From positions 4,886,501-4,950,500 of the forward strand of contig NZ_CP135921.1 of NCBI RefSeq assembly GCF_032397745.1: DNA of 64,000 bases, in the 5' to 3' direction. The translations under genes were made by a program, and so were the position numbers. Positions 12,780 through 58,735 of this stretch are shown here, piece after piece (within the stretch, counting starts at the first letter, position 1; the number at the start of each line of letters is the position of its first letter). Below the pieces are notes generated by a model. The model did not search any database, was not told the origin of the DNA, and saw only the letters and a program-made list of their open reading frames with translations. Origin of the DNA: Bradyrhizobium prioriisuperbiae. Its GTDB lineage: Bacteria > Pseudomonadota > Alphaproteobacteria > Rhizobiales > Xanthobacteraceae.

Positions 12780-13052
12780 TCATCGCTGCAGCCCGATGTT
12801 CGCTGGCAATTGCAGGTCGATGCGCGGCGTGGTCGGCTCCAGCTCCGGCCGGGATTTGCCGCCCAGGAAATTGGCCCGGTCGCGATTGCTGAAGCCCTGA
12901 TTGACGACGCTTTGGTCCGTGCGCTCATACTCGCTGTGCGAGCGATAGCCTCGCTCGCGGTCCGGCCCGAAGCGTCGCTCCAGCGGCTCCGCGGCAAGGG
13001 GCGCCGCGGCCATCGTCATGAGGATGGAAACCATCAGCAGCCACACTGGCAT
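12780..13052 (-). CDS. Secreted hypothetical protein
   Basis: 90 residues from the ATG at 13052, preceded by GGAGG. A signal peptide (MPVWLLMVSILMTMAAAPLA) is followed by a charged, Arg/Asn-rich mature part ending PRIDLQLPANIGLQR. A much longer frame on this strand extends to 14531 but is only the shadow of dctP. Confidence 0.55.
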   Translation of the reverse strand: MPVWLLMVSILMTMAAAPLAAEPLERRFGPDRERGYRSHSEYERTDQSVVNQGFSNRDRANFLGGKSRPELEPTTPRIDLQLPANIGLQR

Positions 13053-13445
13053 CCGCTGTTCCTCCATGGACCGCGGCGCACATTCGCGCGCGCCGGACAT
13101 GCGCGCGCATGCGTGACAGTATAGCAGGAGGGAGCAGCAGGAGGAACGACATCGGTCGGTACTCAACCGCGAACCTGTGTGCCGGCGATCGTTGTCATCC
13201 GCTGCGTGGGTGAATCCAATGCGTCCGTCGGTGGCAGGTTCTGAAGGGGCGGGGTTGAAAACAGCGGTCGGGCACATCGCGGCGGCGACAGCCCACGCTG
13301 CGCCGCGACAATTCATCCCGGCGCTGCCGTCTGGGCGGCCCAGAATTTGGCTTTCTCGGCGGCGGCCTTTTGCATAGGCTCGCGAGCGGAACCCGGCCGA
13401 AAGCGCAACGACGCCAAAAAATACGGCACGGGCAGGGAGGAAGCG

Positions 13446-14453
13446 ATGAAGCGACGATCCGTGCTTGCCGGACTCGGGGCCGCTGCGGCTGCCGGCACAT
13501 TTGGTAACTTGGCAATCCCCTCGATCCTGAGAGCCCAGACCCCCATCACGTTGAACGGCGCCGTGCAGTTCAACGACGATCATGCCTTCACCAGGTCGCT
13601 GCTCAAGTTCGAAGAACTGGTGAAAAAATACTACGCCAAGCCGATCTCGTTCACGCTGCACAAGAACTCGTCCCTCGGCCTCGAGAAGCAGTATTTCGAG
13701 TACATGTCGCAGGGCAAGGCGGTGGATTACGGCATCGTCTCGCCGGCCCACATGTCGACCTTCGCCAAGGCCGCGCCCTTCATCGACGCGCCCTTCGTGT
13801 TCAAGGGCATCGCGCACATGAACAAGGTGGTGACGCAAAACATCCTGGCGCCGATCGCCGACGAGGTCGCGGCCAAGGCGGACGTCGTGCTGGTCGGCTA
13901 TGCGGGGGGCGGCGTGCGCAACATCTTTGCCAACAAGCCGCTCAAGACGCTCGCCGATCTCAAGGGCCTCAAGGTGCGGGTGCAGGGCGCGCCGATCTGG
14001 TCCAAGACGTTCGCCGCCGTCGGCATGAGTCCGACCGTGATTGCCTACAACGAAGTCTACAACGCCATCCAGAACGGCGTGATCGCGGCCGGCGAAAACG
14101 AGGCCGCCGGCGTCGAGGCGATGAAGTTCTACGAAGTCGCACCGCACCTCAATCTGACCGAGCATGCGGTGTCGATCCGCCCGATCTGTTTTGCGGTGAA
14201 GACGCTGAAGACCCTGCCCAAGGACCTGCAGGACGCCATCATGAAGGCGGGCAAGGAGGCCGGCGATTTCGGCCGCCAGCTGGAGTCGAGCGAAGAGGTC
14301 ACCAAGCTCGATGCGCTGGAAAAGGCCGGCAAGCTCAAACGCGTGCCGTTCGCGGACCGCGACGCCATGAAGAAGCTCGCCGATCCGGTGATGGCCACCT
14401 ACGCCAGGGAGATCGGTGCGGAGGGGATTTTCGAGAAGATCAATGTGGCGTGA
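13446..14453 (+). CDS. dctP: TRAP transporter periplasmic substrate-binding protein
   Basis: 335 residues, DctP family. The N-terminus MKRRSVLAGLGAAAAAG has a twin-arginine-like signal, and AGGGAGGAAG is a strong ribosome site. The mature part shows the expected GIVSPAHMSTFAKAAPFIDA, the conserved ligand-carboxylate region around KTLADLKGLKVRVQGAP with its family Arg, and PTVIAYNEVYNAIQNGVIA. In an intact operon the membrane genes dctQ and dctM would follow at once; here they begin 3.1 kb downstream beyond two insertion elements. Receptor and permease may now be transcribed separately. Confidence 0.92.
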   Translation: MKRRSVLAGLGAAAAAGTFGNLAIPSILRAQTPITLNGAVQFNDDHAFTRSLLKFEELVKKYYAKPISFTLHKNSSLGLEKQYFEYMSQGKAVDYGIVSPAHMSTFAKAAPFIDAPFVFKGIAHMNKVVTQNILAPIADEVAAKADVVLVGYAGGGVRNIFANKPLKTLADLKGLKVRVQGAPIWSKTFAAVGMSPTVIAYNEVYNAIQNGVIAAGENEAAGVEAMKFYEVAPHLNLTEHAVSIRPICFAVKTLKTLPKDLQDAIMKAGKEAGDFGRQLESSEEVTKLDALEKAGKLKRVPFADRDAMKKLADPVMATYAREIGAEGIFEKINVA

Positions 14454-14518
14454 ATCGTTTTCGGAAAGTTGCCCGTAACGGGGCGAAATTTTGTGCGGCT
14501 CCCTCCCCCCTTGTGGGG

Positions 14519-15972
14519 CTCTCGTATGCACACATCTTGCCAGATGATTTGATCACTGATTCCGTGGGTTGTTCGATGATTCACGGAGCGTTCGATGTCT
14601 GGACTGGAATTTGGCCTGGGGCGGTTCGGCGACCTGCGGCTGGAAAAAGGGGGGCGCGTTTGCACGCGGCGCTGGTCGACCGACCGGGGTCGTGCATCCG
14701 CCGGCTGGGCGGGACGCGGGCCGGCGAGATGCAGTTTACGCGCTTTCTTCGCAATGGGTCGGTGACGGCGACAGCGATGGCTGAGCACGCGGCGGAGCGG
14801 ACGGCGGCGCGAGTTGCAGGGCGCGATGTTTTGGTCGTGCAGGATACGAGCGAGCTTGCGTTGGGAGGTCGTCGTGCCAAGGCCAATGGCTACGGTCCGG
14901 TGGGAAAAGGCGGGGCGCTGCGTGGGCTGTTGCTGCACGCGGTTTTAGCGGTGGATGCCGGTACCGGTGCGGTGTTGGGCCTCGTCGATGCGCCGGTGAG
15001 GAACCGCAGCGGCGGCAAGGTCAAATCCCGCCGATCGCGGACGACGGCGCAGAAGGAATCGCAGCGCTGGCTCGATGGGACGGCGCGTGCCGGTGGTGCT
15101 GGCAGCGGCGCGGAGCATCACTGGCGTATCGGATCGGGAAAGCGACATCTACGAGCACTTCGTGCAATGTCCGGCCAACATGCATCTGATCGTGCGGGCG
15201 TGCCAGAATCGACGGATTGAAGCCGACGATGAGGAGCAGACGAGGCTGCTGTTCGCGCACGTTGACAGCCTGCCCGAACAAGGCCGCTTTAGCGTTGAAA
15301 TCCCGGCGGCTCCGGGACGGCGCGGCGCGCACGGGCGAACTGGCTGTCCGCTTTGGCCGCGTCGAGTTGCGCAGGCCGCTGCATGGCGCCTCTGATCTGC
15401 CGCCCGCGACCACGGTGAGCGTTGTCGATGTCCGCGAAACCTCGGCAACTGAGGGCGAAAAGCCGATCCATTGGCGGTTGCTGACGACGCACACGGTCAG
15501 GAGCCTTGCCGATGCGCAAAGGATCGTCGGCCTCTATCGGATGCGCTGGGTCATTGAAGAATACTTCCACACCATCAAGACCGCAGGCTTCAGCATCGAA
15601 CAGGCCGATATCGCCGACCCCGAAGTCATGATCAAGCTGGTCGCGGCCATCGCCATCGCGGCAGTCACGGTGATGCAACTTGTCAAAGCTCGCGACGGTA
15701 CCACCGATCAAAGCCTGCTCGAGGCCTTCGAACCAGCCGATCAACCAATCCTGGAGGCCGTCTCGGCCCGCCTGGAAGGCAAAACCGCACGCCAACAGAA
15801 CCCGCATCCGAAGGGATCGCTCGCCTTCGCCGCATGGGTCATCGCTCGTCTCGGCGGCTGGACCGGTTACTATGATAAACCTGGTCCAAAAACCATGCGT
15901 CGGGGTCTCGACGACTTCCAGCGCATCAAATACGGCACCACCTTGAGGCTCCAAGATGTGTGAATCGGAGAG
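14519..15972 (+). mobile_element. IS4-type insertion sequence, decayed, 1454 bp
   Basis: Element ends are matching inverted repeats (14519-14539 and 15952-15972, 18 of 21 positions) sharing the core CACACATCTTG. They are flanked by identical 10-bp duplications CCTTGTGGGG at 14509-14518 and 15973-15982. A 10-bp duplication and the transposase YREK motif fit the IS4 family. The insertion landed in the C-rich repeat downstream of dctP. A 250-bp MITE at 23146 has the same ends and target type. Confidence 0.88.
14595..15963 (+). pseudogene. IS4-type transposase, frameshifted
   Basis: The frame opens MSGLEFGLGRFGDLRLEKGG. It shifts after a run of A and G near 14642, continues as LHAALVDRPGSCIRRLGG through QDTSELALGGRRAKANGYGP, shifts again near 15080, reads ITGVSDRESDIYEHFVQCP, and shifts once more near 15310 into the last third. 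The latter contains YRMRWVIEEYFHTIK, the Y-R-E-K catalytic signature with the DDE glutamate. At least three frame changes make it inactive unless frameshifting restores it. Confidence 0.85.
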
Positions 15973-16075
15973 CCTTGTGGGGGAGGGCTGGGGAGGGGGG
16001 TATGCCCAGCATTCAGCGATGAGAGGTGGCGTGACGTCGTCGACTCAGTCGCGCTGCGGTTTTGTTGGTCCGACC

Positions 16076-17401
16076 GGGTCGATTCCTGACATTTTGGACC
16101 GGGCTGATGCCTGACAGTATTCGGTCATTGTTTTGCTGTCGCTGCCGTTTTCTGCTGAACGCGGAACCGGGCGCGCGGGGGAGCAAAGCGGAGGAAACGG
16201 TGGTCACGATCGATCACCCCCAGATCCCGGTCGCAGAAGCGCAGGATGTGGCCGCCGGTGTCGCGTTCGGCGAGACCAACGAGTTCGCCTGCAAGCGCTT
16301 CACCGACGAACACGAGCTCGCCGCGCCATTTGATTTCGCCGGAGGAACGCACACGGCGGACCTCATGATAAGCATCGTACCAGGGGTCATGGAGATGGCT
16401 CGGCAGGGCGCGCGACGGCGACTGCCAGAGCTTGGCGGGCGGCGCTTGATCGAGAGCCTCGTGCGGCCGCTCCTGGTTGAAGTGGTGGCGGAAGACGTCG
16501 AACCGGCGCTGCTGCTCGGCAGCCGTTGCCGCCGGCGGTTTCGAGGTCTCAGCCTTCAGAGTGCGGTGCATGCGCTCGTGCCGGGCGTTGTCCTGCGGAC
16601 TCGCCGGCGGGATGTAGTGCGGCTCGATGCCGAGCTTGAGCCACCACACCGAGAGTGCCGAAAGGCCGCCCGCCCCGTGGATCCGAACGGTGTACCGTTA
16701 TCGGAGCGGATCGCATCGGAAGGCCAATGTCCGCGAAAACGCGTTCCAGCGCGCCTTTAACGCCAGCCCAGGTCGGATCGACGATGCGGACCTCGACAAG
16801 AAAGCGGCTCGCAGCATCCGTGATGGTGAGCGGATCGCAGCGTGTCCCGTCGCGGGTTCGAAACCAGCCCTTAAAGTCGATCGACCATTCCTCATTGGGG
16901 ACGCTTGCCGGCGCCACCACCTCGCCCTGTGCAATCGCTCGACGTCGGCGACGGCGTGTCTCGACCAAGCCTTCCCGCTTCAGGATGTCGCCGATCGTCG
17001 ACGCCGCAGGCCAGTCGATCTCGGGCCGCCCGCGCTCAAGCCATGCCTTGACCTTCTTCGGGCCGAAATGCGGGAACCGTCGCCGTGTCGCGATGAGGCA
17101 GTCGGCCAGTTGGCTAGCCGTCGCATGCGGACAGCTCTCCACCGCGTGGCTTCTCTCCTCGAACCAGTGCGGCTCCCCGCTCGCGCGGCGGCGCTTCCAC
17201 ACGTAGAAGGTCTCCCGGCTGATGCCATACCGCGCGCACAGCTCCGTCACCGAAAATGCTCCCGTCTCGTACTCCCGAAACAACGCGATACGCTCCTCCA
17301 TAGGACTGCTCTCCCTGAAAGGCATCGCCTGATCCTCCATCGAATCAGACGAAGCTTGCCTGTCAGGAATCAACCCGGGTCAAATTGTCAGGACTCAGCC
17401 C
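16076..17401 (-). mobile_element. IS481-type insertion sequence, decayed, about 1.3 kb
   Basis: Imperfect inverted repeats of about 42 bp lie at 16076-16117 and 17360-17401; both read TCCTGACA, then CCGGG, then a second CCTGACAG going inward. The element encodes a minus-strand IS481 transposase and sits directly after the IS4-type element. No clear target duplication was found. C-rich repeat sequence lies on both sides. Confidence 0.75.
16125..17325 (-). pseudogene. IS481-family transposase, frameshifted
   Basis: Read together the two frames give about 400 codons, the normal length. The N-terminal part has an HTH (GAFSVTELCARYGISRETFY) and the first catalytic Asp in NEEWSIDFKG. The second catalytic segment (SDNGTPF) falls in a different frame around 16690. 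A further shift near 16650 restores VWWLKLGIEPHYIPPASPQD and RPHEALDQAPP with the catalytic Glu. Two frameshifts make it a pseudogene. Confidence 0.85.
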
Positions 17402-37394: not shown

Positions 37395-39017
37395 TTGACC
37401 CAAGACACTTCGATCCAAGACACATCGATCCAAGACACATCGACCGGCCCCACATCAGCGACCGACACGGATGCCTCCATCGCCGCGGAAAACGCCCCGG
37501 CCTGGGAAGGCGCATGGGGCGCAGGCGTTGACGCCTATTCCGATCCGCGCTGGCGGCTGAACAATCTCTACGTCATCACCGACAAGGACGGCCGCCGGAT
37601 TCCCTTTCGCATGAACACCGCACAAGAGGCGTTGTTCGAGGGTATGCACAATCAGAACATCATCCTCAAAGCGCGCCAGCGCGGCTTCACGACTTTCATC
37701 CAGCTTCTGATGCTCGATGCCTGCGTGTTCAACTCGAACATCCGCGCCGGCACCATTGCGCACACGCTGGCCGATGCGCAGGTGATCTTTCGCGACAAGG
37801 TGCGTTATCCCTATGACAACCTGCCGGAGGGGCTGAAGGCCGCGGCGCCCGTGATCAACGATAACGCCAGCGAGCTTTTGCTCGGCAACAATTCCGGCAT
37901 CCGGGTCGGCACCTCGCTGCGGTCCGGCACGCTGCAATACCTGCACGTCTCCGAATACGGCAAGATCTGCGCGAAGTTTCCCGACAAGGCCCGCGAGGTG
38001 CGCTCCGGCGCGCTCAACACCGTGGACAAGGAGCAGATCGTGTTCATCGAAAGCACGGCGGAGGGGCAGGACGGGCATTTCTTCGAACTGTGCCAGGCGG
38101 CGCGCAGCCGCAGGAACTCCGGCGACCTGCTGACGCCGATGGATTTCAAGTTTCACTTTTCGCCCTGGTGGGAGGACGAGCGTTATGTGCTGCCCGCGAA
38201 CACCGTGGCGATCCCGCCGTCCTACGCGGCCTATTTCACGCGGCTGGAAGGCTGCGGCATCCAACTGACGGATGAGCAGCGCGCCTGGTATGTCAAGAAG
38301 TCCGAGCAGCAGCAGGGCGACATGGTGCGCGAGTTTCCCTCGACGCCGGATGAAGCGTTCGAGGCCGCGATCGAAGGCGCCTATTATTCGGAGCAATTGG
38401 CGCGGATGGAGCTCGACCGGCGGCTGACGCGGATCCCGATCGATCCGGCCATTCCGGTGATGACGGCGTGGGACCTGGGCTTCAACGATGCCAACACCAT
38501 CTGGTTCATCCAGGTGGCGGGCCTCGAGATCCGCCTGATCGACTATTACGAGAACTCGGGCCACGGGCTGGAGCATTATGTCGGCGAGTTGAACCGGCGG
38601 CGCGAGCAGCACGGCTTCATCTATGGCGATCATTACTTTCCACACGATGTCACCAGCAATGAATTGAGCAACGGCCGCAGCCGGTTCGATACCCTGGTGG
38701 GCCTCGGCGTGACGCCAGTGGCGGTGCCGCGGGTGCACAACATCAATGACGGGATCAACGCCGTGCGCCGCATGCTCAGCCGCGCGGTGATCGATCCGGT
38801 GCGGTGCGAGCGCGGACTGAAGTGCCTGCGCAACTACCGCAAGCAATGGGACGACGATCGCGGCACCTTCCGCGACCGCCCGCTGCACAATTGGGCCTCG
38901 CATGGCGCGGACGCGTTCCGCACCTTTGCTCAAGGTTATGTCGAACAATCGCTTGTTGCGCCGCGTGACCGCTATCGCCGCCCGCTGCGCAAAGGCGAGT
39001 CATGGGAGTCGGCGTGA
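37395..39017 (+). CDS. Phage terminase large subunit
   Basis: 540 residues from a TTG at 37395. The packaging ATPase has a Walker-A-like IILKARQRGFTT (about 90-101) and Walker B IVFIEST (about 214-220). The nuclease domain has MTAWDLGFND (Asp near 359) and HYFPHDVTSNEL. This is the P22/Sf6-type motor that cuts and pumps DNA into the procapsid. The first 18 residues are a (S)IQDT repeat from a 15-bp DNA repeat; because of this the true start could be slightly different, and no strong ribosome site is seen. Confidence 0.88.
   Translation: MTQDTSIQDTSIQDTSTGPTSATDTDASIAAENAPAWEGAWGAGVDAYSDPRWRLNNLYVITDKDGRRIPFRMNTAQEALFEGMHNQNIILKARQRGFTTFIQLLMLDACVFNSNIRAGTIAHTLADAQVIFRDKVRYPYDNLPEGLKAAAPVINDNASELLLGNNSGIRVGTSLRSGTLQYLHVSEYGKICAKFPDKAREVRSGALNTVDKEQIVFIESTAEGQDGHFFELCQAARSRRNSGDLLTPMDFKFHFSPWWEDERYVLPANTVAIPPSYAAYFTRLEGCGIQLTDEQRAWYVKKSEQQQGDMVREFPSTPDEAFEAAIEGAYYSEQLARMELDRRLTRIPIDPAIPVMTAWDLGFNDANTIWFIQVAGLEIRLIDYYENSGHGLEHYVGELNRRREQHGFIYGDHYFPHDVTSNELSNGRSRFDTLVGLGVTPVAVPRVHNINDGINAVRRMLSRAVIDPVRCERGLKCLRNYRKQWDDDRGTFRDRPLHNWASHGADAFRTFAQGYVEQSLVAPRDRYRRPLRKGESWESA
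37400..37444. repeat. 15-bp tandem repeat, three units
   Basis: Three units of CCAAGACACWTCGAY encoding a repeated QDTSI at the extreme N-terminus of the large terminase. Unit length preserves frame. Confidence 0.85.
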
Positions 39018-39349: not shown

Positions 39350-39679
39350 TGCCGCCGCGTTGATGCCGGCATGACGCACCGATTGATGGTGTGACGTGGT
39401 GATCGTGTGCCGGCTGCCACGATCTTTCGTGTCTTGAGATCGATGCCCTCAGCTCTGTAATTCTATTTCTCCGTTATCTTTTCGTCGTGCCGCACACTGC
39501 GGCGCCTTTCACGTTCCGGCGCAGTCGCCCGGATGAGCGCTTCCTGCGCGATATCCGGGATGGGGTGCGAGCATCCCGTGACCATTCGCCTTCGGCGCTT
39601 CCTCTTTTCCTTCACCGAAAACCAGAGCCTAGCCATCCGACACGCGTTGTCCGACGCGGCCGGATGCTTTGGCGCAACC

Positions 39680-40493
39680 CAGCGAGGCCCTCATGCCCTA
39701 TCGACCGGACGACAGCGCATTCGACACCGATGACTCCTTTGCGCGTCTCGCGCCGGACACCGCATCCCCGCGCGACTTGTTCTATGCTCTGACGGCGCAG
39801 GGCGTGCCGCCGCAGCAGGCGATGACGGCGGCCTATGCGCGGGACAGCGACGTGCTGCACGCGACGTTGCAGGCCTACGGCCGCCCAACCGTCATCCCCA
39901 ACGCGCCGTTGTCGTCCCTGACTGAGATTCCCGTGGTCGATACCAGGCTTCCCCCGGCCGACTTTTCGAGGGGGCAAGTTGTCCAACCGACGTCTGCGCG
40001 CGGCGCATCAGTGTTTCCAGATCCGCCGTACTTCCCGCCGCAAACCGACGACGATGCGATGCGCCGCCGGCCGGGCTTCATCCCGCGCGCTGACGGCGGA
40101 GATAATCTGGGGCCCGGCTATCTCAACCCGCGTTCGGAAGTCGAACGCCGATCCCGCTGGGCCGCCCGGGATTCGTCCCGTGAAAGCCTGGGACTGCCGC
40201 CGGACAGCACCGACCAGTTCGCGGGCGTCAATCTCGGTAGAGGCGCGGATGGAGGTTACGGTCTCGATCCGCACTATGCGGCGCAGACGCAACGCGCGCT
40301 GGATACGGAGCCCTATGTGCCGACCCAGCGTGAGCGCATCGTTCGCGGCGGCAAGTTCTATGCAGGCGCCGCGCCGTTCGGGTTTGCCGGGCCGGGGTCT
40401 TTGAATTTCGATCCGTCGCTGGAGGCGAATACGGAAACTCTCGCTCCGTTCCGGCGTCCGTTCACCGAACGAGGGCCGTTGGACGCCTTGGCG
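39680..40493. repeat. Direct repeat, copy 1 (near-identical to 42026-42842)
   Basis: About 0.8 kb that is almost base-for-base the same as 42026-42842, starting just before each ATG (GAGGCCCTC) and ending sharply after GAGGGCCGTTGGA. It covers the first two thirds of two large cargo-like genes. Confidence 0.9.
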
Positions 40494-40955
40494 AAAGCCT
40501 ATGTGGAAAGTCCGGCTTACCAGGCATCGTTGCAGCCTGAGGCCGCGGATCACGGGCGCTCGGAGCGCCAACGAAGGTCCGCGCTAGGGAGCCGCAGTAC
40601 GTCCGACGAATATTTCGAAACGGCCTTACGAATAGGTCGGGAGGGGCGAGAGCAGATGTCTCGCGGGTGGGATCAGTTCAGGAATTCTGATGATCCCTGG
40701 ACACGGGCTGAAGGTGTAGGCAACTTCGGAATGGGCTTATGGGATGCTGCGCTGTCGCCGGTGTCCGCGGCTTTGCGGACTGAAGTGACACAACCGTTGG
40801 AAGATGTCGTCGGGCTTCCCAGGGAAATTCTGGAGAGTGGGGTCCGAGGAGCGTCGGCAGCGAGAACCATTGCCGCTGTCCCCGGTGTCATTGCCAGCAT
40901 CCCCGGTCTCATCGCTGGCGTTCCACGTGTGATACGCGGCCTCTTGTCGCGATGA
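39693..40955 (+). CDS. Large cassette protein A (constant N-terminus, variable C-terminus)
   Basis: 420 residues from the ATG at 39693. The first 267 are Pro/Asp/Arg-rich and nearly identical to the protein at 42039; they include SPRDLFYALTAQGVPPQQAM, PDPPYFPPQTDDDAMRRRPG and AAPFGFAGPGSLNF. The last 150 are only distantly alike: DDPWTRAEGVGNFGMGLWDA and TQPLEDVVGLPREI match DEPWTFAKGVGNMVLGGANY and SQPFEDLTGISRYY in the paralogue. The C-terminal pattern recalls membrane-interacting parts of phage ejection or polyvalent proteins. Function unknown. A minus-strand membrane-protein gene follows at 34 bp. Confidence 0.72.
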   Translation: MPYRPDDSAFDTDDSFARLAPDTASPRDLFYALTAQGVPPQQAMTAAYARDSDVLHATLQAYGRPTVIPNAPLSSLTEIPVVDTRLPPADFSRGQVVQPTSARGASVFPDPPYFPPQTDDDAMRRRPGFIPRADGGDNLGPGYLNPRSEVERRSRWAARDSSRESLGLPPDSTDQFAGVNLGRGADGGYGLDPHYAAQTQRALDTEPYVPTQRERIVRGGKFYAGAAPFGFAGPGSLNFDPSLEANTETLAPFRRPFTERGPLDALAKAYVESPAYQASLQPEAADHGRSERQRRSALGSRSTSDEYFETALRIGREGREQMSRGWDQFRNSDDPWTRAEGVGNFGMGLWDAALSPVSAALRTEVTQPLEDVVGLPREILESGVRGASAARTIAAVPGVIASIPGLIAGVPRVIRGLLSR

Positions 40956-40989
40956 TGGCTGAGATGCCGAGGTCCTTCGGACCGACGTG

Positions 40990-41301
40990 TCAGCTATAAG
41001 ACTGCCCCATGAAGGCAAAAATCAAAATGATGACGATGTAGGCGATGATCTCCGCGAGTTTGCGCGTCCACGGCCAGCGTGGAATAGTCATCGCGAAGAA
41101 CGCGACGTAAACCACGAAGGCTGACCAGCCCCACGTGCCAAAGAAAAATATGCTGTACAGCAGCTCGGTCAAGGACAACTGCTCGCCCGGTTCGTGAAGC
41201 AGTTTCATGCCGTAGAAGAAAAGAAACGGGGCCGCAAAAAACCAGAGCACGATGATAGTGAGTGTTGTCCAGCCGACGATTCGCTCATGCCTATATGTCA
41301 T
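40990..41301 (-). CDS. Cassette membrane protein 1 (three helices)
   Basis: 103 residues beginning MTYRHERIVGWTTLTIIVLW. It shares IVGW-x6-IVLWFF-x2-PF-x-F-x-YG and LTELLY-x2-FF-x-GTW-x-W with the proteins at 41389 and 43339. Three hydrophobic helices (about 11-33, 48-72, 82-100). Convergent with cassette gene A. By position it could be an immunity or anti-holin-like partner; that is inference. Confidence 0.7.
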   Translation of the reverse strand: MTYRHERIVGWTTLTIIVLWFFAAPFLFFYGMKLLHEPGEQLSLTELLYSIFFFGTWGWSAFVVYVAFFAMTIPRWPWTRKLAEIIAYIVIILIFAFMGQSYS

Positions 41302-41388
41302 GTTCCGATTCCGCGCCGAAAGCCGCAGCTTGTCTGAGGCTTTGCCACATCTTGTCGCGACGATGCTTTGTCATGTCCGGCAACGTTC

Positions 41389-41706
41389 TCATTTGCCCCA
41401 TGGCGCAAAGATCAAAAACCTCAAGATCATGTCGGTGGTCTCTTTGAGTTGGCGCACCCGGAGAGCGTTCTTCGGCCAGCGCGCCTCGGCCAGCCTGAAG
41501 AGCGCGCCGTAGACCCAGTAAAACGACCAGAACCAGGTTCCGACAAAGAATAGACCATACAACAACTCGGTCAGAGAAATCTGCTTTCCGCTTGGCATGC
41601 CCATCAATATGGAGCCATAGACGAAAAGAAATGGCGCCGAGAAAAACCAGAGTACGATAACCGTCCCTTTAGCCCAGCCGACGATCTGACTCTGCGCGTG
41701 CGTCAT
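41389..41706 (-). CDS. Cassette membrane protein 2 (three helices)
   Basis: 105 residues from the ATG at 41706, GATCGGAAG directly upstream. Contains IVGWAKGTVIVLWFFSAPFL, LTELLYGLFFVGTWFWSFYW and YGALFRLAEARWP. It is closest to the protein at 43339 and lies in the duplicated unit with it, but the large gene that should precede it on the left is cassette A, separated by membrane gene 1. Confidence 0.7.
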   Translation of the reverse strand: MTHAQSQIVGWAKGTVIVLWFFSAPFLFVYGSILMGMPSGKQISLTELLYGLFFVGTWFWSFYWVYGALFRLAEARWPKNALRVRQLKETTDMILRFLIFAPWGK

Positions 41707-42025
41707 CTTCCGATCCCCCGCCAAAAGCTGCTACTTGTGTCATCACGATTGAAATAAGTTTTGGCGTTTCCAGCCGCAAGCGGCAGCACGCCCGTCCGCC
41801 GCTGCGCCATCGGCTTTCAAACATCAAGAACTGGTGATGGTGCGGTGCGCTCAAGCGACCGCGCTTTCGGCGCCGCGCCCCGCGGCAATGCGAGTGCGAC
41901 AATGTCGATAGCAATGCGTCCTGACCTCCTGACGAATTGCAAGCGGTAATTCCCTTTCCATTCATCGACGACGAGCCGATCTGCCCCACCGCGTGAACCG
42001 ACGCGGCGGGCGGGTCGACGCATCC

Positions 42026-42842
42026 CAGTGAGGCCCTCATGCCCTATCGACCGGACGACAGCGCATTCGACACCGATGATGCTTTCGCGCGCCTCGCGCC
42101 GGACACCGCGTCCCCGCGCGATCTGTTCTATGCCTTGACGGCCCAGGGCGTGCCGCCGCAGCAGGCGATGACGGCGGCCTATGCGCGGGATAGCGACGTG
42201 GTGCACGCGACGTTGCAGGCCTGCGGCCGCCCAACCGTCATCCCCAATGCGCCGTTGTCGTCTCTGACTGAGATTCCCGTGGTCGATACCAGGCTTCCTC
42301 CGGCTAACTTTTCCCGGGGGCAAGTTGTCCAACCCATGTCCCAGGCGATGTCCGCGCGCAGCGCATCGGTGTTTCCGGATCCGCCGTACTTCCCGCCGCA
42401 AACCGACGACGATGCGATGCGCCGCCGGCCGGGCTTCATCCCGCGGCCCGACGGCGGTGATAATCTGGGGCCCGGCTATCTCAACCCGCGTTCGGAAGTT
42501 GAACGCCGATCCCGCTGGGCCGCCCGGGATTCGTCCCGTGAAAGCCTTGGACTGCCGCAAGACAGCACCGACCAGTTCGCGGGCGTCAACCTCACGAGAA
42601 GCGCGGACGGAGGCTACGGCCTCGATCCGCACTATGCCGCGCAGACGCAACGCGCGCTGGATACGGAGCCCTATGTGCCGACCCAGCGTGAGCGCATCGT
42701 CCGCGGCGGCAAGTTCTATGCAGGCGCCGCGCCGTTCGGGTTTGCCGGGCCGGGCTCGTTGAATTTCGATCCGTCGCTGGAGGCGAATACGGAAACTCTC
42801 GCTCCGTTCCGGCGTCCGTTCACCGAACGAGGGCCGTTGGAT
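42026..42842. repeat. Direct repeat, copy 2 (near-identical to 39680-40493)
   Basis: Second copy of the 0.8-kb repeat; it has a 15-bp insertion near 42337 relative to copy 1. A further repeated segment joins the units: 41389-42026 resembles 43339-43980, including an intergenic stretch with AAACATCAAGAACTGGTGAT. Confidence 0.9.
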
Positions 42843-43280
42843 ATTGCTATCGACACCGTCGTTGAAGGCGCAAAACGCGCAAAAGAGGCGTCATTGCAGC
42901 CTGAACCTGCCGATCACGGTTACTCGGAACGTCAGAGACAATCTGCGGTCCAGCGGCTGCTTAGTCCAATCACCTACTATCCTGAGACTTACCTCAGAAT
43001 GAATCGGGAGGCGCAAGAACAGTTTTGGCGCGGTGTGGACCAGGCAAAAAGGATGGATGAGCCATGGACCTTTGCCAAGGGGGTGGGCAATATGGTCTTG
43101 GGTGGGGCAAATTACGTCTACTCACCGAGAAACGCGGCCGTGCGGACCGCTCTGTCACAGCCGTTTGAAGATTTGACTGGAATCTCACGATATTATCCGG
43201 AGGCGATGGTTCAGGGAGGGCTCCTGGCGCGCGGTGCTTACCGCCTTGCGCGCCACATTGGCCAGAAGCTGTCGCCGTAA
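42039..43280 (+). CDS. Large cassette protein B (constant N-terminus, variable C-terminus)
   Basis: 413 residues. The first 268 match protein A at 39693 almost perfectly. From IDTVVEGAKRAKEASLQ on it diverges but keeps the overall plan: a linker with SERQRQSAVQ, a helix with EAQEQFWRGVDQAKRMD, a Gly/Ala-rich hydrophobic stretch (KGVGNMVLGGANYVYSP) and a C-terminal helix. It is followed at 58 bp by a minus-strand membrane-protein gene. Start chosen by GTGAGGCCCTC upstream and identity with A. Confidence 0.72.
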   Translation: MPYRPDDSAFDTDDAFARLAPDTASPRDLFYALTAQGVPPQQAMTAAYARDSDVVHATLQACGRPTVIPNAPLSSLTEIPVVDTRLPPANFSRGQVVQPMSQAMSARSASVFPDPPYFPPQTDDDAMRRRPGFIPRPDGGDNLGPGYLNPRSEVERRSRWAARDSSRESLGLPQDSTDQFAGVNLTRSADGGYGLDPHYAAQTQRALDTEPYVPTQRERIVRGGKFYAGAAPFGFAGPGSLNFDPSLEANTETLAPFRRPFTERGPLDIAIDTVVEGAKRAKEASLQPEPADHGYSERQRQSAVQRLLSPITYYPETYLRMNREAQEQFWRGVDQAKRMDEPWTFAKGVGNMVLGGANYVYSPRNAAVRTALSQPFEDLTGISRYYPEAMVQGGLLARGAYRLARHIGQKLSP

Positions 43281-43338
43281 TAGTTCAATGTTGCCGAGCG
43301 ACTCTTCATGTAAGAAGCGCCGCCATCACAGCACATGA

Positions 43339-43641
43339 TCAAGGCAGAGGTGCAGAAAAAAGACAGGTCAGAAACAGATCGATGACTTGCTTGATCTCGC
43401 GGGCGCGTGGCCAACGGGCTTCAGCCAGCTTGAAGAGTGCGGTGTAAATCCAGTAAAGCGACCAGAGCCAGGTTCCAAAGAAAAACAGGACGTATAACAG
43501 TTCGGTCGAAGTATGCGACGCTTCGCCCTGTGAGAAAAACGATCCGAGGCCGTAGAAGAACGGGAACGGCGTCGCAAAAAACCAGAGCACGATGACCGCG
43601 CCTTTGCTCCAACCGACGATCCGGCCATGCCTGTATGTCAT
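43339..43641 (-). CDS. Cassette membrane protein 3 (three helices)
   Basis: 100 residues from the ATG at 43641 with GATCGGAAG upstream. Contains MTYRHGRIVGWSKGAVIVLW, STELLYVLFFFGTWLWSLYW and YTALFKLAEARWP. Third paralogue of the family at 40990 and 41389, and convergent with cassette gene B. A longer frame to 43761 enters the repeated intergenic segment and is not supported. Confidence 0.7.
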   Translation of the reverse strand: MTYRHGRIVGWSKGAVIVLWFFATPFPFFYGLGSFFSQGEASHTSTELLYVLFFFGTWLWSLYWIYTALFKLAEARWPRAREIKQVIDLFLTCLFSAPLP

Positions 43642-43982
43642 CTTCCGATCCCGCGCCGAAAGCTGCAACTCGTCCGAAGTTTCAACAACGAAGATAGGTT
43701 TCGGCGTTTTCAGCCGCAAGCAGCTGTCGGTCCCGCTCGTGGTTGCGCCATCGGCTTTCAAACATCAAGAACTGGTGATGGTGCAGTGCGCTCAAGCGAT
43801 CGCGCTTTCGGCGTCTCATCTAGCAGCGATGCAGTACGACCAATGTTGATAGCAATGCGTCCCGTCTGACCTCCTGACGAATTGCGCACCGTAACTCTCC
43901 TTCCATTCATCAACGAAGAGCCGACCTTTCCAGCTGCGTGAACCGGCGCGGCGGGCGGGTTGGCGCATGTCTGCGAGGCCGC

Positions 43983-46133
43983 ATGACTGACGAGCACGAC
44001 AACCCGATCGCCGACACCGACGCGCTGTTCCGGCGCCTGAAGGGCTGGTTTCTGCAAGACCAGGAAACCGAGAGCGGCTGGCGGCGCAAGGCGCGGGAGG
44101 ATTTCGCCTTCACTGCCGGCGAGCAGCTGTCCGACGAGGACAAGGCGCGGCTGCGCGAGATGAACCGGCCGATCATCGTGATGAACCGGATCGAGCCGGT
44201 GATCGACAGCGTGGCCGGCTCCGAAGTCGCCAACCGCCAGGAGGTGCGTTTCATTCCGCGTTCGCAGGGCGACGTGCAGGTCAACGAGGTGTTGACGTCG
44301 GCGGCCAAGTGGTTCCGCGATCAGTGCGATGCCGAGGACGAGGAGTCCGACGCCTTTCGCGACACCATCATCTGCGGCATGGGCTGGACCGAGACCCGCC
44401 TCGACTATGAGGACACGCCGGAAGGCGCGCCGGCGATCGAGCGCTGCGATCCCCTGCAGATGGTGTGGGACTCGGCTGCCACGAAGCGCAACCTGGTCGA
44501 CATGCGCCGTGTCTTTCACATCCGCCGCGATATCCCGATTGCCGAGGCGCGCGCGCTGTGCCCCGGTGACGATTTCGAGGATGCGGACTACAACGCCACC
44601 TGGGTCGACAGCCGCGACGACAAGGAGCCGCGCCATGTCGACAACACCTTTTACGACAAGGACGAGACCGGCGCGGGCGGCGACCCGGGCGCCGGCGACG
44701 ACACCTGCGTTACCATGGTCCGCGCCCAGTGGTGGGAGCGGGTGCCGGTGTATCTGGTGCTCGACCCGACCAATCCGGACAACATCCTGACACTGGACAA
44801 GCCGGCGTTCGACGACCTGCAGGCGAAAGCGAAACTCGTCGGCGCCGAGCTGCGTTTCACCAAACAAACCCGTAAGACCTACAAGCAGGCGTTTCTCGGC
44901 AACATCCTGCTCGAGATCGGCGAGGCGCCGTGCCGCGAGCACTTTTCCTTCAAGTGCATCACCGGCAAGCGGGACCGCAATGCCAACACCTGGTACGGCC
45001 TTGTGCGCGCCATGAAGGATCCACAGCGGTGGGCCAACAAATGGATGTCGCAGACCATGCACATCATGAACACCTCCGCCAAGGGCGGCATCCTGGCCGA
45101 ACGCGGCTTCTTCGAGAACGATGCGGATGCCGAAGCCACCTGGGCGCGGCAGGATGCCATCACCTGGGCCAGGCAAGGCGCGCTCTCCGGCACCGCGCCG
45201 AAATACACCCAGAAGCCGCAGTCGGAATTTCCCTCGTCGTCGTTCCAGCTGATGCAGTTCGCGATCTCCTCGATCCGCGACGTCTCCGGCGTCAATGTCG
45301 AGATCCTGGGGATGCAGGCCGGCGCCAGCCAGGCGGCGAGCCTGGACATGCAGCGCAAGCAATCGGCGATGACCATCCTGCAGCCGCTGTTCGACAGCCT
45401 GCGGCGTTATCGCAAGGAGCAGGGGCGGCTGCTGCTGTACCTGATCGAGAACTATCTGTCCGACGGCCGGCTGATCCGCATCGTTGGCCAGGAGCAGGAG
45501 CAATATGTGCCGCTGATCCGCCAGCCGGGCACGGCGTCCTACGACGTGATCGTGGACGAGGCGCCGACTTCGCCGAACCAGAAGGAGGCGACATGGTCGA
45601 TGCTGCAGCAATTGCTGCCGGTGATCGGCACCATGCTGCCGCCGGCGACATGGCTGGCGCTGCTGAAATATTCGCCGCTGCCGACTTCGGCCCAGAAGGA
45701 CATCTCCGACAGCGTGACCCAGAGTCAGCAGGCGGCGCCGCAGCAACCGCCGCCGGATCCCACCGTCGAGCTGATCAAGGCCCAGCTGCAGCAAACCACG
45801 CTGAAGACTCAATCCGACATCGTCAACCAGAAGGCGCTGACGGATGCCAAGATCGCCAATCTCACCCGCGAGGCCGAGGCCGAGACCGCGATCAAGCTGC
45901 GCAAGGCCCAGGCCGACAACCTCGCCGACATGCTGGCCACGCCGCCGCCGCTCGGCCCCGACGGTCTGCCGGTAACCGGTGGCAGCGAAGGGGTGGCGCT
46001 GGTGATGTCCGTCATCGACGAAATGCGCAACGAGATGAAGACACTCGCCGACACCCTCAACACGCCGAAGCAGATCGTGCGCGATCCGCAGACCGGGGAG
46101 ATCACCGCAGTGGTGCCGATGCGGATGAACTGA
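43983..46133 (+). CDS. P22-type phage portal protein
   Basis: 716 residues from the ATG at 43983. Recognised by YxFTAGEQLSDEDKARLRE, RPIIVMNRIEPVIDSVAGSE, the acidic wing region, RDVSGVNVEILGMQAGASQA with SLDMQRKQSAM, and a C-terminal coiled coil (KAQLQQTTLKTQSDIVNQKA) forming the barrel. Portal dodecamers are the DNA gate of the capsid and dock the terminase. Length matches P22-like portals. It follows the duplicated cassettes, which therefore interrupt the usual terL-portal order. Confidence 0.88.
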   Translation: MTDEHDNPIADTDALFRRLKGWFLQDQETESGWRRKAREDFAFTAGEQLSDEDKARLREMNRPIIVMNRIEPVIDSVAGSEVANRQEVRFIPRSQGDVQVNEVLTSAAKWFRDQCDAEDEESDAFRDTIICGMGWTETRLDYEDTPEGAPAIERCDPLQMVWDSAATKRNLVDMRRVFHIRRDIPIAEARALCPGDDFEDADYNATWVDSRDDKEPRHVDNTFYDKDETGAGGDPGAGDDTCVTMVRAQWWERVPVYLVLDPTNPDNILTLDKPAFDDLQAKAKLVGAELRFTKQTRKTYKQAFLGNILLEIGEAPCREHFSFKCITGKRDRNANTWYGLVRAMKDPQRWANKWMSQTMHIMNTSAKGGILAERGFFENDADAEATWARQDAITWARQGALSGTAPKYTQKPQSEFPSSSFQLMQFAISSIRDVSGVNVEILGMQAGASQAASLDMQRKQSAMTILQPLFDSLRRYRKEQGRLLLYLIENYLSDGRLIRIVGQEQEQYVPLIRQPGTASYDVIVDEAPTSPNQKEATWSMLQQLLPVIGTMLPPATWLALLKYSPLPTSAQKDISDSVTQSQQAAPQQPPPDPTVELIKAQLQQTTLKTQSDIVNQKALTDAKIANLTREAEAETAIKLRKAQADNLADMLATPPPLGPDGLPVTGGSEGVALVMSVIDEMRNEMKTLADTLNTPKQIVRDPQTGEITAVVPMRMN

Positions 46134-47283: not shown

Positions 47284-47787
47284 ATGCGCGTCCTCTATGG
47301 TTTGCTCAATGCGCCGCCGAGCGCGGTTCGGTGGCCTGACGACGTTCGGGGGCAACTTGCCCCTGCGGTGGGGTCATCCGACGACATCCGCGGCGGGCCG
47401 AACGGTTATCCGCCGCCGTTCGGGTTCGTGCCGGTGGGCGCGACACGGTTGATCAATCGGGACGGGGGGCGTTCGATATGGGCCGGGCCTACCAATGGCA
47501 ACTGGGGTGGGAAATACTGGAGCGGCGGACAATACGCGCCTCCGGGCCGGCCGAATGGGTCGCTGCCCCCGGTCGACAGCGGGGACGAAAGCTATATGCG
47601 GCATGATCTCTGTTACGATGCAGCGGGCAGCGATCCCCAAAAAATCCGCGCATGCGATAAAGTTCTTATCGACGAACTGAATGCGTTACCGAGGTCGCCG
47701 AAAGATTGGCCGAGGCCGCCGCAGCCTGGCACGGAAGATGAAACGGAACAGTTTCGCGGCTGGGCAAAAGGGTGGTTCGGCTCGTGA
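47284..47787 (+). CDS. Phospholipase-A2-like protein, phage cargo
   Basis: 167 residues; AAAGGAGAAG is a strong ribosome site. An N-terminal half rich in Pro and Gly (NGYPPPFGFVPVG, NWGGKYWSGGQYAPPG) leads into ESYMRHDLCYDAAGSDPQK then RACDKVLIDELNALP. The HD-x-CY pair (H107, D108, C110, Y111) followed by CD-x2-L is the active-site helix signature of phospholipase A2 folds, also known from viral proteins that breach membranes. The assignment rests on this motif. A small membrane protein is encoded just downstream, as for toxin/immunity pairs. Confidence 0.6.
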   Translation: MRVLYGLLNAPPSAVRWPDDVRGQLAPAVGSSDDIRGGPNGYPPPFGFVPVGATRLINRDGGRSIWAGPTNGNWGGKYWSGGQYAPPGRPNGSLPPVDSGDESYMRHDLCYDAAGSDPQKIRACDKVLIDELNALPRSPKDWPRPPQPGTEDETEQFRGWAKGWFGS

Positions 47788-47904
47788 CGTAGAATGACGC
47801 GTCCGCCTGACGTTAGCTGCGTCATGTTGACATGATTCGTGATTTGTTCCAGCATTCTGACGCAAGCACGTTCATCCGTCAGTTCAGCGCGGAGATTGTC
47901 CGAG

Positions 47905-48213
47905 GTGGCTCTACACAAGAGTGAATTGCGTCAGCCCGCCAACAGGCGCCTCTGGGTGCTCTGCCTTATTTTCATCGTCTGGTCCATTTTGGGTTTGAAT
48001 CAGCTGGGCGAGTTCTGGATTCCGAAAACGAAATGGTGGGGCCTGCTTGTCTACATTCTCGTGCACATCGGACTCGTCGGAATAATTTTGCGAACAGCCG
48101 GCTTGCGACTTTGGTCAGCCGGTTTATGTCTGCTCGGACTTTTGATCGGGGGATGGACTGTTTGGCCGACTTTCTGGGCTTTTACAGCCTGGCACTGGGG
48201 CGGGTTCGTCTGA
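47905..48213 (+). CDS. Three-helix membrane protein downstream of the PLA2-like gene
   Basis: 102 residues from a GTG at 47905 (an ATG at 47839 would add 22). After a basic start (ALHKSELRQPANRRLW) come helices VLCLIFIVWSILGLNQL, WWGLLVYILVHIGLVGIILR and LWSAGLCLLGLLIGGWTVW. It is unlike the cassette membrane proteins in sequence but has the same size and layout. It may protect the inner membrane from the PLA2-like protein; this is inference from position. Confidence 0.6.
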   Translation: MALHKSELRQPANRRLWVLCLIFIVWSILGLNQLGEFWIPKTKWWGLLVYILVHIGLVGIILRTAGLRLWSAGLCLLGLLIGGWTVWPTFWAFTAWHWGGFV

Positions 48214-54457: not shown

Positions 54458-55960
54458 TCTTACTGCGTCATGATTTTTCTGCGCGTGGGTGATGCTGCGA
54501 CGGCGCCGCAACAAGGGCATCGTATGATTGTTTTGCTGAGGGCCCGGCTCAACCGCACGCGCATGGTTGCGATCGAGTTCGGGACGTGGCGTTCAGGCCG
54601 CAAGGGCAGATCCTCTGGGTCGATAATTGTCGGGTAAGGGAGGGACCTGGACTGGCGCGGCGGAACAAGTTTCTGAGGGGGGAATCGTCGCCTGTTCGGC
54701 GATCAGGAAGCCGTAGGCCGCGATGCACAGGGTTGCGTGATGATGGAAGCCACGCCAGCCGCGCCCCTCGTAGTGACCGAGCCCGACCTCCTGCTTGAGC
54801 TCCTGATAGTCGCGCTCGATGCGCCAGCGCAGCTTGGCCAGATTGACGAGCTGCGTGAAGCTGACGTTCTCCGGCAGCGTGGCGAGCCAGTATTTGGTCG
54901 GCTCTGCTTCGCCCTCCGGCCATTCGATCAGCAGCCACTCCGGCGACAGCTTCTCGGGGATCAGTTTGTTGTACCCGACGCGGACACGCACCCGCGCAAA
55001 GCGCGAGGATAGCTGGTCGGCCGAGCCTTCCCGCCACGCCACCGTGCGCCAGGCCTGCTTCGGGAGACTGAGTGCCACTTTTTTGGCCGAGACCAGTTCG
55101 GGCTCGTCGCGGCGGCCGGTGTTGTTCATCGGCTTGTCCATCCGCCGCGGGCCGCTGCCAGGGGCCCACATCAAGATGGTCGGCACGATGCCGACCACGT
55201 AAGGCAAGCCCAATTCTGTCATGCCGGCACGCAGCCGCGCGTCCCTGCCGTAGGCCGCATCCATCAGCGCGACGCCGCGTGGCAGACTGCTCTCGCAGGC
55301 CCAGCGGATTTGCTCCAGCGCGATCTGCGGCTTAGTCTTGAACTTGATCTGCTTCGGCACGCCTGCCTTCTTCCGCCGGGCACGATCCTTCGTCCAGGCT
55401 TCCGGCAAGTACAGCCGATAGGCCACCGGAAGGCTGGCGGCATGATTGGCGATCGAGAGCGACACCGCCACCTGGCAATTGGCCTGCTTGCCGAGCTGCC
55501 CGCAATATTGGTGGTGCACGCCGACCGAATGCTTGCCTTGCTTGGGGAACGAGGTGTCGTCGATGATCCACGCCTCGATCGGCCCGCTCTTCTCGATCGC
55601 CGGCAGCACCAAATCGCGCACCTTGGTCAGCACGTCCTCGTCCGACCAGGCCGCGTTGGCGACAAAATGCAGCAACGACTGATGCTGTGCCGCCGTGCGC
55701 GCTGGAGCCGTCCGCGCCGCCATCGGCTCCACGCTCTTGCGTTCCCCAGGCAGCATCAGGCCCGTGCAATAGTCGCGCAGCGGTCTCGTCCGCTCCACGT
55801 GACCGATCACGCTTCCAAGACCGGCTACATACTCCGCAAACCGCGTTTCGCTATCCCCACCCTGATCGAGATTCATCCGGCCCTCCGCGCGCCAAATATT
55901 GAATCTCCTCAATTACTTGATTCTCAGCCTCAATGACTGCGACCGTCTGACTCAGTACGA
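54458..55960 (-). mobile_element. IS701-family insertion sequence, intact, 1503 bp
   Basis: Ends are inverted repeats TCTTACTGCGTCATG and TCGTACTGAGTCAGA (read inward). They are flanked by a 4-bp duplication TTAG at 54454-54457 and 55961-55964, the YTAR target typical of IS701. The transposase frame is complete, so the copy could be active. The insertion split a REP-like palindrome (GGGCGGATTAG ... GTAGTCCGCC). Confidence 0.88.
54593..55876 (-). CDS. IS701-family transposase
   Basis: 427 residues from the ATG at 55876. The DDE core is visible: AWIIDDTSFPKQGKHSVGVH, then VALMDAAYGRDARLRAGMTE, then KLRWRIERDYQELKQEVGLG with the catalytic Glu. Length is full and no stop or shift interrupts it. 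It cuts and pastes the surrounding 1.5-kb element. Confidence 0.93.
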   Translation of the reverse strand: MNLDQGGDSETRFAEYVAGLGSVIGHVERTRPLRDYCTGLMLPGERKSVEPMAARTAPARTAAQHQSLLHFVANAAWSDEDVLTKVRDLVLPAIEKSGPIEAWIIDDTSFPKQGKHSVGVHHQYCGQLGKQANCQVAVSLSIANHAASLPVAYRLYLPEAWTKDRARRKKAGVPKQIKFKTKPQIALEQIRWACESSLPRGVALMDAAYGRDARLRAGMTELGLPYVVGIVPTILMWAPGSGPRRMDKPMNNTGRRDEPELVSAKKVALSLPKQAWRTVAWREGSADQLSSRFARVRVRVGYNKLIPEKLSPEWLLIEWPEGEAEPTKYWLATLPENVSFTQLVNLAKLRWRIERDYQELKQEVGLGHYEGRGWRGFHHHATLCIAAYGFLIAEQATIPPSETCSAAPVQVPPLPDNYRPRGSALAA

Positions 55961-57319: not shown

Positions 57320-58735
57320 ATGTCTGCCACTGTGACTTGCGCGCCCACCGACTCGCTGAAGTCCGGCCTGGTGCGCCGCCTGGTGCCGCTGCAGGGCGGC
57401 CTGCTTGCGGTGTTCGCGCTGATTATCGTGACCTCGCTCTGGTTCACCGGCTTCATCCTGCACCAGCGCGACGAAGACCGGGTGATCCATGTGCTGCAGG
57501 ATGCGCTGACGCGCGATGCGAGCGGCCATCTGGCGCTGCGTCCGACGCGGTATCTCGACGACCTGCGCGAAGACAATCCGAACCTCTGGTTCCAGATCCG
57601 CGATGGTGGCGGGCAGACGCTGACCGAAGGCATTGTGCCGCCGCAGTTCGCGGGCCTCGGGCCCGCCCTGGACGGCATCGGCCAGGCGAAGCTGGGCTTC
57701 GATCAGGGACACAGCAAATACAAGGGCAAGGACAGCCATTTCAGCGCGCGTTTGAAACGCGTCAACACCGCGGCGGGCGAGGTGCAGATCATAGCGACCT
57801 CGGATGTCACGCTCTCGGACCTGACATCATGGCTGCAACTGGCCCTGGCCTTTCTCGCATTGACGCTGCCGGGGCTGGTGCTGATGACGCTGGCGACCAA
57901 GGTGGCGACACCGATGGTGGTGCGCCGCGCGCTCGCCGGCCTTGCGGATGCGGCGCAGCGCGCCCGCGAGATCGACATCGACAAGCGCGGCACCCGGCTG
58001 CCGGTGACGGCGATCCCCGGCGAGGTGACGCCGCTGGTGGATGCGGTCAATGATGCGCTGGGCCGGCTCGACGAAGGGTATGAGCGGCACAAGCGTTTCC
58101 TGACCGATGCGGCCCATGAGCTGCGCACGCCGATCGCCATCCTGACCACGAGCCTGGAGTCGCTGCCCGACGAAGGCACCGACAAGACGCAGCTGCTGCA
58201 GGACGCGGCGCGGCTGGCGAACCTGATGGAGCAATTGCTCGATTTGCAGCGGCTCGACCAGCGCATCGCCAGGCTCTCCACCGTCGATCTGGTGGCGATC
58301 TGCGCGCGGGTGACGGCGGATCTCGCGCCGATGGCGATAGCAGCGGGCTATGACATCTCGCTGTTGCCCGAGACCGACCGGATCGAGGCCTGGGGGGATG
58401 AGAGCTCGCTCGAGCGCGCCGTGGTCAACCTGGTGCAGAACGCGATCCAGCATGGCGGCCGGCGCGGCATCATCGTGGTGGCGGTGCACTGGCCGGCGAT
58501 CATCGAGGTGATCGACCAGGGGCCGGGCATCCCGCCGTCCCAGCGCGAGCAGGTGTTCGAGGCGTTTCACCGGGTGCGGCCGCTCGACCGCGGCGCCGGG
58601 CTCGGCCTCAACCTGGTGCGAGAAATCGTCCGGCTGCACCAGGGCGAGGTGGAGATCGGCGAAGGTCCCGGCGGCGGCACCCGCGTGCGCGTCACGCTGG
58701 CGCCGATCGCGGTGCCGTATCTCGCGGCGGGGTAG
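57320..58735 (+). CDS. Two-component sensor histidine kinase
   Basis: 471 residues. Membrane helices at about 24-47 and 174-196 flank a periplasmic sensor region of about 125 residues. Then a linker, the HisKA box with His266 (HELRTPIAILTTSLESL), the N box LVQNAIQHGG, G1 DQGPGIP and G2 GAGLGLNLVREIV. It autophosphorylates on His266 and passes phosphate to Asp51 of the regulator upstream. Length and order are typical. Confidence 0.93.
   Translation: MSATVTCAPTDSLKSGLVRRLVPLQGGLLAVFALIIVTSLWFTGFILHQRDEDRVIHVLQDALTRDASGHLALRPTRYLDDLREDNPNLWFQIRDGGGQTLTEGIVPPQFAGLGPALDGIGQAKLGFDQGHSKYKGKDSHFSARLKRVNTAAGEVQIIATSDVTLSDLTSWLQLALAFLALTLPGLVLMTLATKVATPMVVRRALAGLADAAQRAREIDIDKRGTRLPVTAIPGEVTPLVDAVNDALGRLDEGYERHKRFLTDAAHELRTPIAILTTSLESLPDEGTDKTQLLQDAARLANLMEQLLDLQRLDQRIARLSTVDLVAICARVTADLAPMAIAAGYDISLLPETDRIEAWGDESSLERAVVNLVQNAIQHGGRRGIIVVAVHWPAIIEVIDQGPGIPPSQREQVFEAFHRVRPLDRGAGLGLNLVREIVRLHQGEVEIGEGPGGGTRVRVTLAPIAVPYLAAG

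Follow-up and report, generated by a model that had tools for sequence, protein, structure and literature searches.

Tandem pairs of short ejection-type genes and convergent membrane genes in a Bradyrhizobium prophage: a candidate superinfection-exclusion cassette

The closest described counterpart of the locus reported here is SieA of phage P22. SieA blocks DNA injection, and the changes by which phages escape it are located in gp16 and gp20, as passages of Leavitt et al. 2024 (PMC10883804) report. According to the same passages, no studied system other than P22 SieA is thought to block short-tailed phages at injection; SieA relatives are described from Enterobacteriaceae only, and recognition is said to be hard to explain given the diversity of both the ejection and the SieA proteins. 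In P22, gene 16 is followed at 22 bp by sieA, which is convergent with it on the other strand. In E. coli HS, the gene of the third DNA transfer protein is likewise followed, at 21 bp, by a hypothetical gene in the same layout; it is 29% identical to P22 SieA and is taken for the HS1 sieA of PMC10883804. Here we analysed a stretch of 64,000 nucleotides from Bradyrhizobium prioriisuperbiae (GCF_032397745.1, contig NZ_CP135921.1, positions 4,886,501 to 4,950,500; hereafter the window), in which a prophage carries two tandem units of a plus-strand large gene and convergent minus-strand membrane genes. Our preferred reading, to which we assign a probability of roughly 60%, is that the large genes are short relatives of ejection-cluster proteins and that the convergent membrane proteins are likely superinfection-exclusion proteins blocking injection by phages with related ejection proteins.

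Large genes with a conserved front and a switching rear

The gene order in the window is the terminase large subunit gene terL (37395-39017, +; phrog_2, expectation value (E) 1.4e-28), large gene A (+), membrane genes a1 and a2 (both -), a spacer, large gene B (+), membrane gene b (-), a second spacer copy and a P22-type portal gene (43938-46133, +; Pfam P22_portal, E 6.3e-109). A first-pass annotation had proposed two tandem units between terL and portal, with plus-strand large genes of about 415 codons, and the open reading frames (ORFs) together with the flanking-gene matches confirmed both points: A (39669-40955, +, by ORF) encodes a short ejection-type protein of 428 amino acids (aa), with the ATG homologous to the start of B at 39693, and B (42039-43280, +) one of 413 aa. 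It had also assumed one membrane gene per unit, which holds for the second unit (b, 43339-43761, -, 140 aa, internal ATG 43641) and fails for the first, where a1 (40990-41301, -, 103 aa) and a2 (41389-41724, -, 111 aa, internal ATG 41706) follow each other. The three are paralogues, as it had supposed, with proteins 49-54% identical, and the intergenic DNA is indeed repeated: the strandless spacer preceding B (41754-42035) recurs in blocks of 81-87% identity at 43694-43980, where the second copy ends at the start of the portal gene. Two further repeat blocks of 300 nucleotides (92% identity) are spaced about 2.35 kb apart, and the membrane genes contain three copies of a block of 160 nucleotides. 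Chance was rejected as a source of these repeats, the observed repetition being far above chance expectation.

A search of the same genome with B and b found a second array in the same prophage, about 33 kb downstream and outside the window (G000:C1:4962966-4967079). In the coordinates of L006 it comprises large gene C (12966-13946, +), membrane genes c1 (14006-14344, -) and c2 (14442-14993, -), large gene D (15032-16087, +) and membrane gene d (16636-17079, -), with an additional hydrophobic ORF between D and d (16206-16808, -) that is 37% like d over 43 aa. While a1, a2, b and c1 are clearly related, c2 joins them through short or weak stretches only and d weakly (9.6e-5 or 6.6e-4, depending on the number of ORFs searched). 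Upstream of C and D lie a match to PHROG 4287 'DNA ejection protein' (3.4e-20) and a gene of 254 aa, so that C and D sit in an ejection gene cluster. Among ORFs of at least 40 aa in the 99.5 kb around the prophage, the three module profiles matched only A, B, C and D, so this region showed no long form of these types.

Comparison of the large proteins in steps of 30 codons showed the duplication to be uneven. Identity between A and B is 93-100% as far as codon 240, then 80% (codons 241-270), 67% (codons 271-300) and 40-47% beyond, with synonymous divergence (dS) of 0.22 for codons 1-270 and 2.67 thereafter. Between C and D, identity is 60-77% in codons 1-121 and drops to 13-29% afterwards, where the two are unrelated. 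Given these profiles, both pairs have a better conserved front followed by a switching rear module. The genes are under purifying selection, the ratio of nonsynonymous to synonymous divergence (dN/dS) being 0.16-0.18 in the A/B and C/D comparisons, 0.16-0.28 for the large genes overall and 0.24-0.49 for the membrane paralogues, hence below 0.5 wherever dS is finite. Sequence comparison places a region common to all four large proteins at 40311-40493 (+) in A and 42669-42851 (+) in B, with the invariant pattern APFG[FL]AGPGSLNF, and the rear modules at 40506-40952 (+) and 42864-43277 (+). The rear modules are predicted to be helical; the structure model of B is mostly of low confidence, with a mean predicted local distance difference test score (pLDDT) of 53.5.

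The shared-region profile (A3) gave four clear matches among 391 genomes of the family, all in the genome under study, and no match among the viral contigs; matches in six other genomes (E 7e-4 to 6.3e-3) were taken for chance. B had no match in the genome contigs, and tblastn of B, C and D (E <= 1e-3) and of b (E <= 0.01) against 50,697 phage records returned none.

Relatives in ejection clusters and pairing with the membrane family

The rear modules match the N-terminal regions of proteins of 513-1118 aa. The A/B module, for instance, was found in proteins of 725 aa (L005, a contig shared with L101), 533 aa (G138) and 513 aa (G080), and in proteins of 621-887 aa on further viral contigs, while the D module occurs in a short form of 349 aa (G348) and a long form of 1118 aa (L105). 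In the short forms, which hold only the shared domain, this domain is the C-terminal end. The C module matched short proteins along all of the module and long ones in part: of 10 C-type long forms, 7 have a match that stops at or before model position 127, in L091-L093 it runs in pieces to 159-163, and the short forms have a common ending that reaches position 184. Where the long form closes a series of genes (G361, G386 and G408), the products measure about 226-367, 483-499 and 561-718 aa, matching the order and rough size of P22 genes 7, 20 and 16 (229, 471 and 609 aa, from coordinates). The long form of G408 matches PHROG 26400 'DNA ejection protein' (2.3e-26, residues 172-539), and the first member of the series in G386 matches PHROG 598 'DNA ejection' (1.5e-6); the other series members compared with PHROG had no match at E <= 0.1. 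D matches PHROG 5880, a family of unknown function (1.6e-4), while PHROG gave nothing for A and B at E <= 1 or for C at E <= 0.1. The G408 long form had no credible match among solved structures.

To be scored as paired, a large gene had to have the membrane family convergent within -170 to +250 bp of its stop. Of 22 short large genes, 19 had this arrangement, as against none of 20 long forms (Fisher 3.5e-9), or 19/22 versus 0/17 (2.6e-8) when near-identical pairs were counted once (L092/L093 and L099/L100 are near-identical, L089/L090 about 90% alike). All three exceptions (D itself, a D-type gene of G348, and G350) have a different convergent small hydrophobic ORF in the interval. Among 17 viral loci found with the C module, 11 of 12 short forms had the membrane family directly behind them and none of the five long forms did. 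The 14 genomes matched by profile A6 held six short and five long forms; the remaining three (G412, G378 and G423), with short or partly masked frames, were excluded from the 22-versus-20 count, as were L077 and L087, the same phages as G348 and G350. Downstream sequence was short in L103 (181 bases, which cut the interval), L012 (396) and L013 (417). The co-occurrence that the first-pass annotation had named as support is found for the short large genes; its refuting case, homologues of the large gene mostly without the membrane gene, applies in part, as longer ejection-type proteins with the same domain lack this family (0 of 20).

The annotation had also named covariation of the two genes as support. 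In 13 phages with complete C-type pairs (the split L085, L088 and G523, and G350, which lacks the family, were left out), Mantel (Spearman) comparison of distances for the C module and the membrane protein gave r 0.60 (p 0.004). Eight of these phages could be compared with an ejection-protein control, since four had no ejection gene in the stretch and the frame of L084 overlaps the membrane gene. In this set the correlation was 0.52 (p 0.07) for large and membrane proteins, 0.59 (p 0.04) for large and ejection proteins and 0.05 (p 0.39) for membrane and ejection proteins, and the partial large-membrane correlation was 0.61 (p 0.04); membrane proteins had the greatest mean distance (0.71), followed by large (0.49) and ejection proteins (0.29). 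The covariation lends weak to moderate support to matched large/membrane pairs.

The membrane proteins are predicted to be small, hydrophobic inner-membrane proteins of about three helices. For a2, the three helices of the first-pass annotation reappear in the structure model (mean pLDDT 77); hydropathy windows above 1.5 numbered three in a1 and one each in a2 and b. In the genus to which G348 belongs, profile A7 found seven loci, spread over 6 of 265 genomes; six of the seven lie convergent beside a C-type short form or a remnant of one. The first membrane profile matched 5 of 391 family genomes, one of them weakly, and in an order-level sample of 284 genomes the family appeared in the genome under study only; judged by these profiles, it is narrow in distribution. 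A7 had no credible match among solved structures. In G348, two tandem membrane copies (79% identical) accompany one intact and one cut large gene. Fused double copies of the family domain were noted in L078, L079, L081, L083 and L088. The G+C content of a1, a2, b, c1 and c2 is 0.52-0.56, that of neighbouring genes 0.60-0.65 and that of d 0.64; the low values fit genes acquired late.

Related small ORFs with predicted helices were also seen convergent to the 3' ends of long ejection genes, and partly overlapping them. They fall into two groups (L089, L090, G361 (L067) and G408 (L069); L098, L099 and G138 (L012)). In L089 and G408, judged by coordinates, the overlap does not include the hydrophobic part. 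As leads, these ORFs suggest that it may be more widely the case that a convergent membrane gene follows the last ejection gene. A string like GGLLGRLL, picked after inspection, occurs 22 times in 1081 ORFs of at least 100 aa, 18 of them, by reading of the rows, in short forms or in the gene adjoining the ejection protein; it may be an assembly signal and is absent from A and B.

Turning to the surroundings, the morphogenesis cluster is apparently interrupted, by about 11-13 kb, at 52828-65743 (window coordinates continued past its end), between a gene guessed to be scaffold-like and a capsid gene (Phage_capsid_3). The interrupting genes include a DDE transposase (54593-55912), a histidine kinase (57320-58735) and further host-type genes, and a capsid-like 5' fragment lies at 64234-64500. 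At 47284-47787 (+), an ORF of 167 aa carries the phospholipase A2-like string HDLCYD, recognised by eye; it had no Pfam or NCBIfam match and a weak match in the PDB to phospholipase A2 (E 1.8), and a small membrane ORF follows on the same strand (47839-48213, +). Rfam and tRNA scans of the window gave no match, and terminator-like sites numbered 5 against 5.1 expected.

Proposed exclusion of related phages and competing explanations

Since the layout resembles that of P22 gene 16 and sieA, the membrane proteins likely stop DNA injection by related phages. The mechanism we consider likely, though not proven, would run as follows. Induction would bring expression of the large protein together with the late genes; once packaged, it would be ejected into the host envelope, its helical rear module coming to rest in the membrane or against it. 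During lysogeny, transcription of the membrane gene would proceed from the other strand, and its product, predicted to reside in the inner membrane, would jam the entry conduit of incoming related phages, by analogy with SieA acting on gp16 and gp20. Duplication copies the whole pair, and divergence between the copies affects both the rear module and the membrane protein. A bolder version, which we regard as rather doubtful, sees a phage-versus-phage compatibility system of injected short, ejection-derived effectors with interchangeable membrane modules, each with its own convergent blocker, so that a tandem array within a single lysogen would recognise several injection types and shut them out simultaneously.

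Several points weigh against the exclusion reading. The match to PHROG 26400 covers residues beyond the shared domain, leaving the domain itself without annotated function, and A and B are placed between terL and portal, outside the ejection cluster. Of the 20 long forms, 12 also have some convergent small hydrophobic ORF behind them, of mixed credibility, and it is therefore the family alone, rather than the presence of such an ORF, that distinguishes short from long. Eight of the 19 positive loci contributed rows to the membrane profile, and four genomes or contigs (G332, G335, G348 and L015, a contig shared with L081) were first found via the membrane protein; in favour of the reading, among short-form viral contigs found by the large module alone and contributing no rows, 9 of 10 were positive (L087 was negative). 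The covariation is weak once the ejection-protein control is used. The membrane-family gene of G525 (L064 8806-9261) has no recognisable large module alongside, promoter-like sites numbered 1 against 1.4 expected from shuffles, a Foldseek search of the membrane model against BFVD and PDB gave no match at E <= 0.001, and hhalign of profile A7 against the P22 and HS1 proteins gave a probability of 0.1%, that is, no detectable homology.

The first-pass annotation had likened the locus to effector/immunity or holin/antiholin architecture; the tandem pairing of a large gene with a convergent membrane gene stands, and both named classes fit worse than exclusion. Tight, convergent pairing with large genes that have a helical rear module would also suit a self-antidote, in which the main role of the membrane protein is to shield the producing cell against the membrane-active large protein that it makes, any exclusion being a by-product. 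We think this unlikely, as long forms with the same modules do without the membrane family and the opposite strand would be expected for lysogenic rather than late expression. That A/B and C/D have a common front, a switching end and a cognate neighbour gene recalls the layout of polymorphic toxins, with the membrane proteins as immunity proteins; yet the ends are related to ejection-cluster proteins, no toxin domain was recognised, A and B have no Pfam match (E <= 1), and A, B and C match nothing in PADLOC or NCBIfam, no toxin family included, which makes this account improbable.

We give about as little credit to decay, under which longer ejection genes would have degenerated into non-functional short forms, with the membrane genes as unrelated morons. 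Broken copies do exist, such as the cut large gene in G348 and the split frames in G523, L085 and L088, and a transposase gene and host-type genes break up the prophage itself; against this stand the low dN/dS ratios, the common ending of the short forms beyond the point where most C-type long forms cease to match, and the recurrence of the pairing in independent phages. Finally, small proteins of two to three predicted helices could be holins or antiholins regulating lysis. At all loci read, the membrane genes run opposite to the late genes, an orientation that argues against holins co-expressed with these, and they are paired with ejection-type genes. Candidate lysis genes in other parts of the prophage were guessed by eye alone and had no Pfam match. 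We hold this explanation to be very improbable.

Comparison with SieA and other exclusion systems

If the exclusion reading is true, prophages of Bradyrhizobium and relatives carry a second, sequence-unrelated membrane family associated with ejection-type genes, and the presumed targets and blockers, adjacent and co-duplicated, would offer natural matched sets for recognition tests. Exclusion genes might likewise be sought by looking for small convergent membrane genes behind the last ejection gene. In the literature, judged from titles or the openings of abstracts, we found no description of such cassettes.

Among systems described by passages of PMC10883804, HK97 gp15, TP-J34 Ltp and Tuc2009 Sie2009 come from long-tailed phages and were compared by description only. 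The ejection proteins of PHROG 26400, 4287 and 598 resemble the cassette through a long relative (G408) or through neighbouring genes (upstream of C, and the first member of the series in G386), whereas A and B match none of these families and the short forms carry the shared domain only, at their C-terminal end. The membrane family has ARWPxxR near its C-terminus in place of the SieA motif FxRYPxEAxxFNK, a similarity seen by eye only, and homology to SieA, a candidate tried by hhalign, was not found; the cassette would work like SieA, and membership of the SieA family is unsupported by sequence. What it shares with P22 SieA is a small predicted membrane protein of about three helices. Its gene is convergent with and adjacent to an ejection-type gene at 19 of 22 short loci; a place directly behind the last ejection gene, as in P22, fits in part, C being inside the ejection cluster and A and B outside. 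It differs in protein length (103-140 aa in the window, 162-164 aa for SieA), in position (sieA lies between genes 16 and 9) and in its partner, a short ejection-type protein. Read in this way, the ejection/exclusion kind of system is already known, and what would be new here is a different membrane family, other hosts, and pairs that have multiplied and diversified within one prophage.

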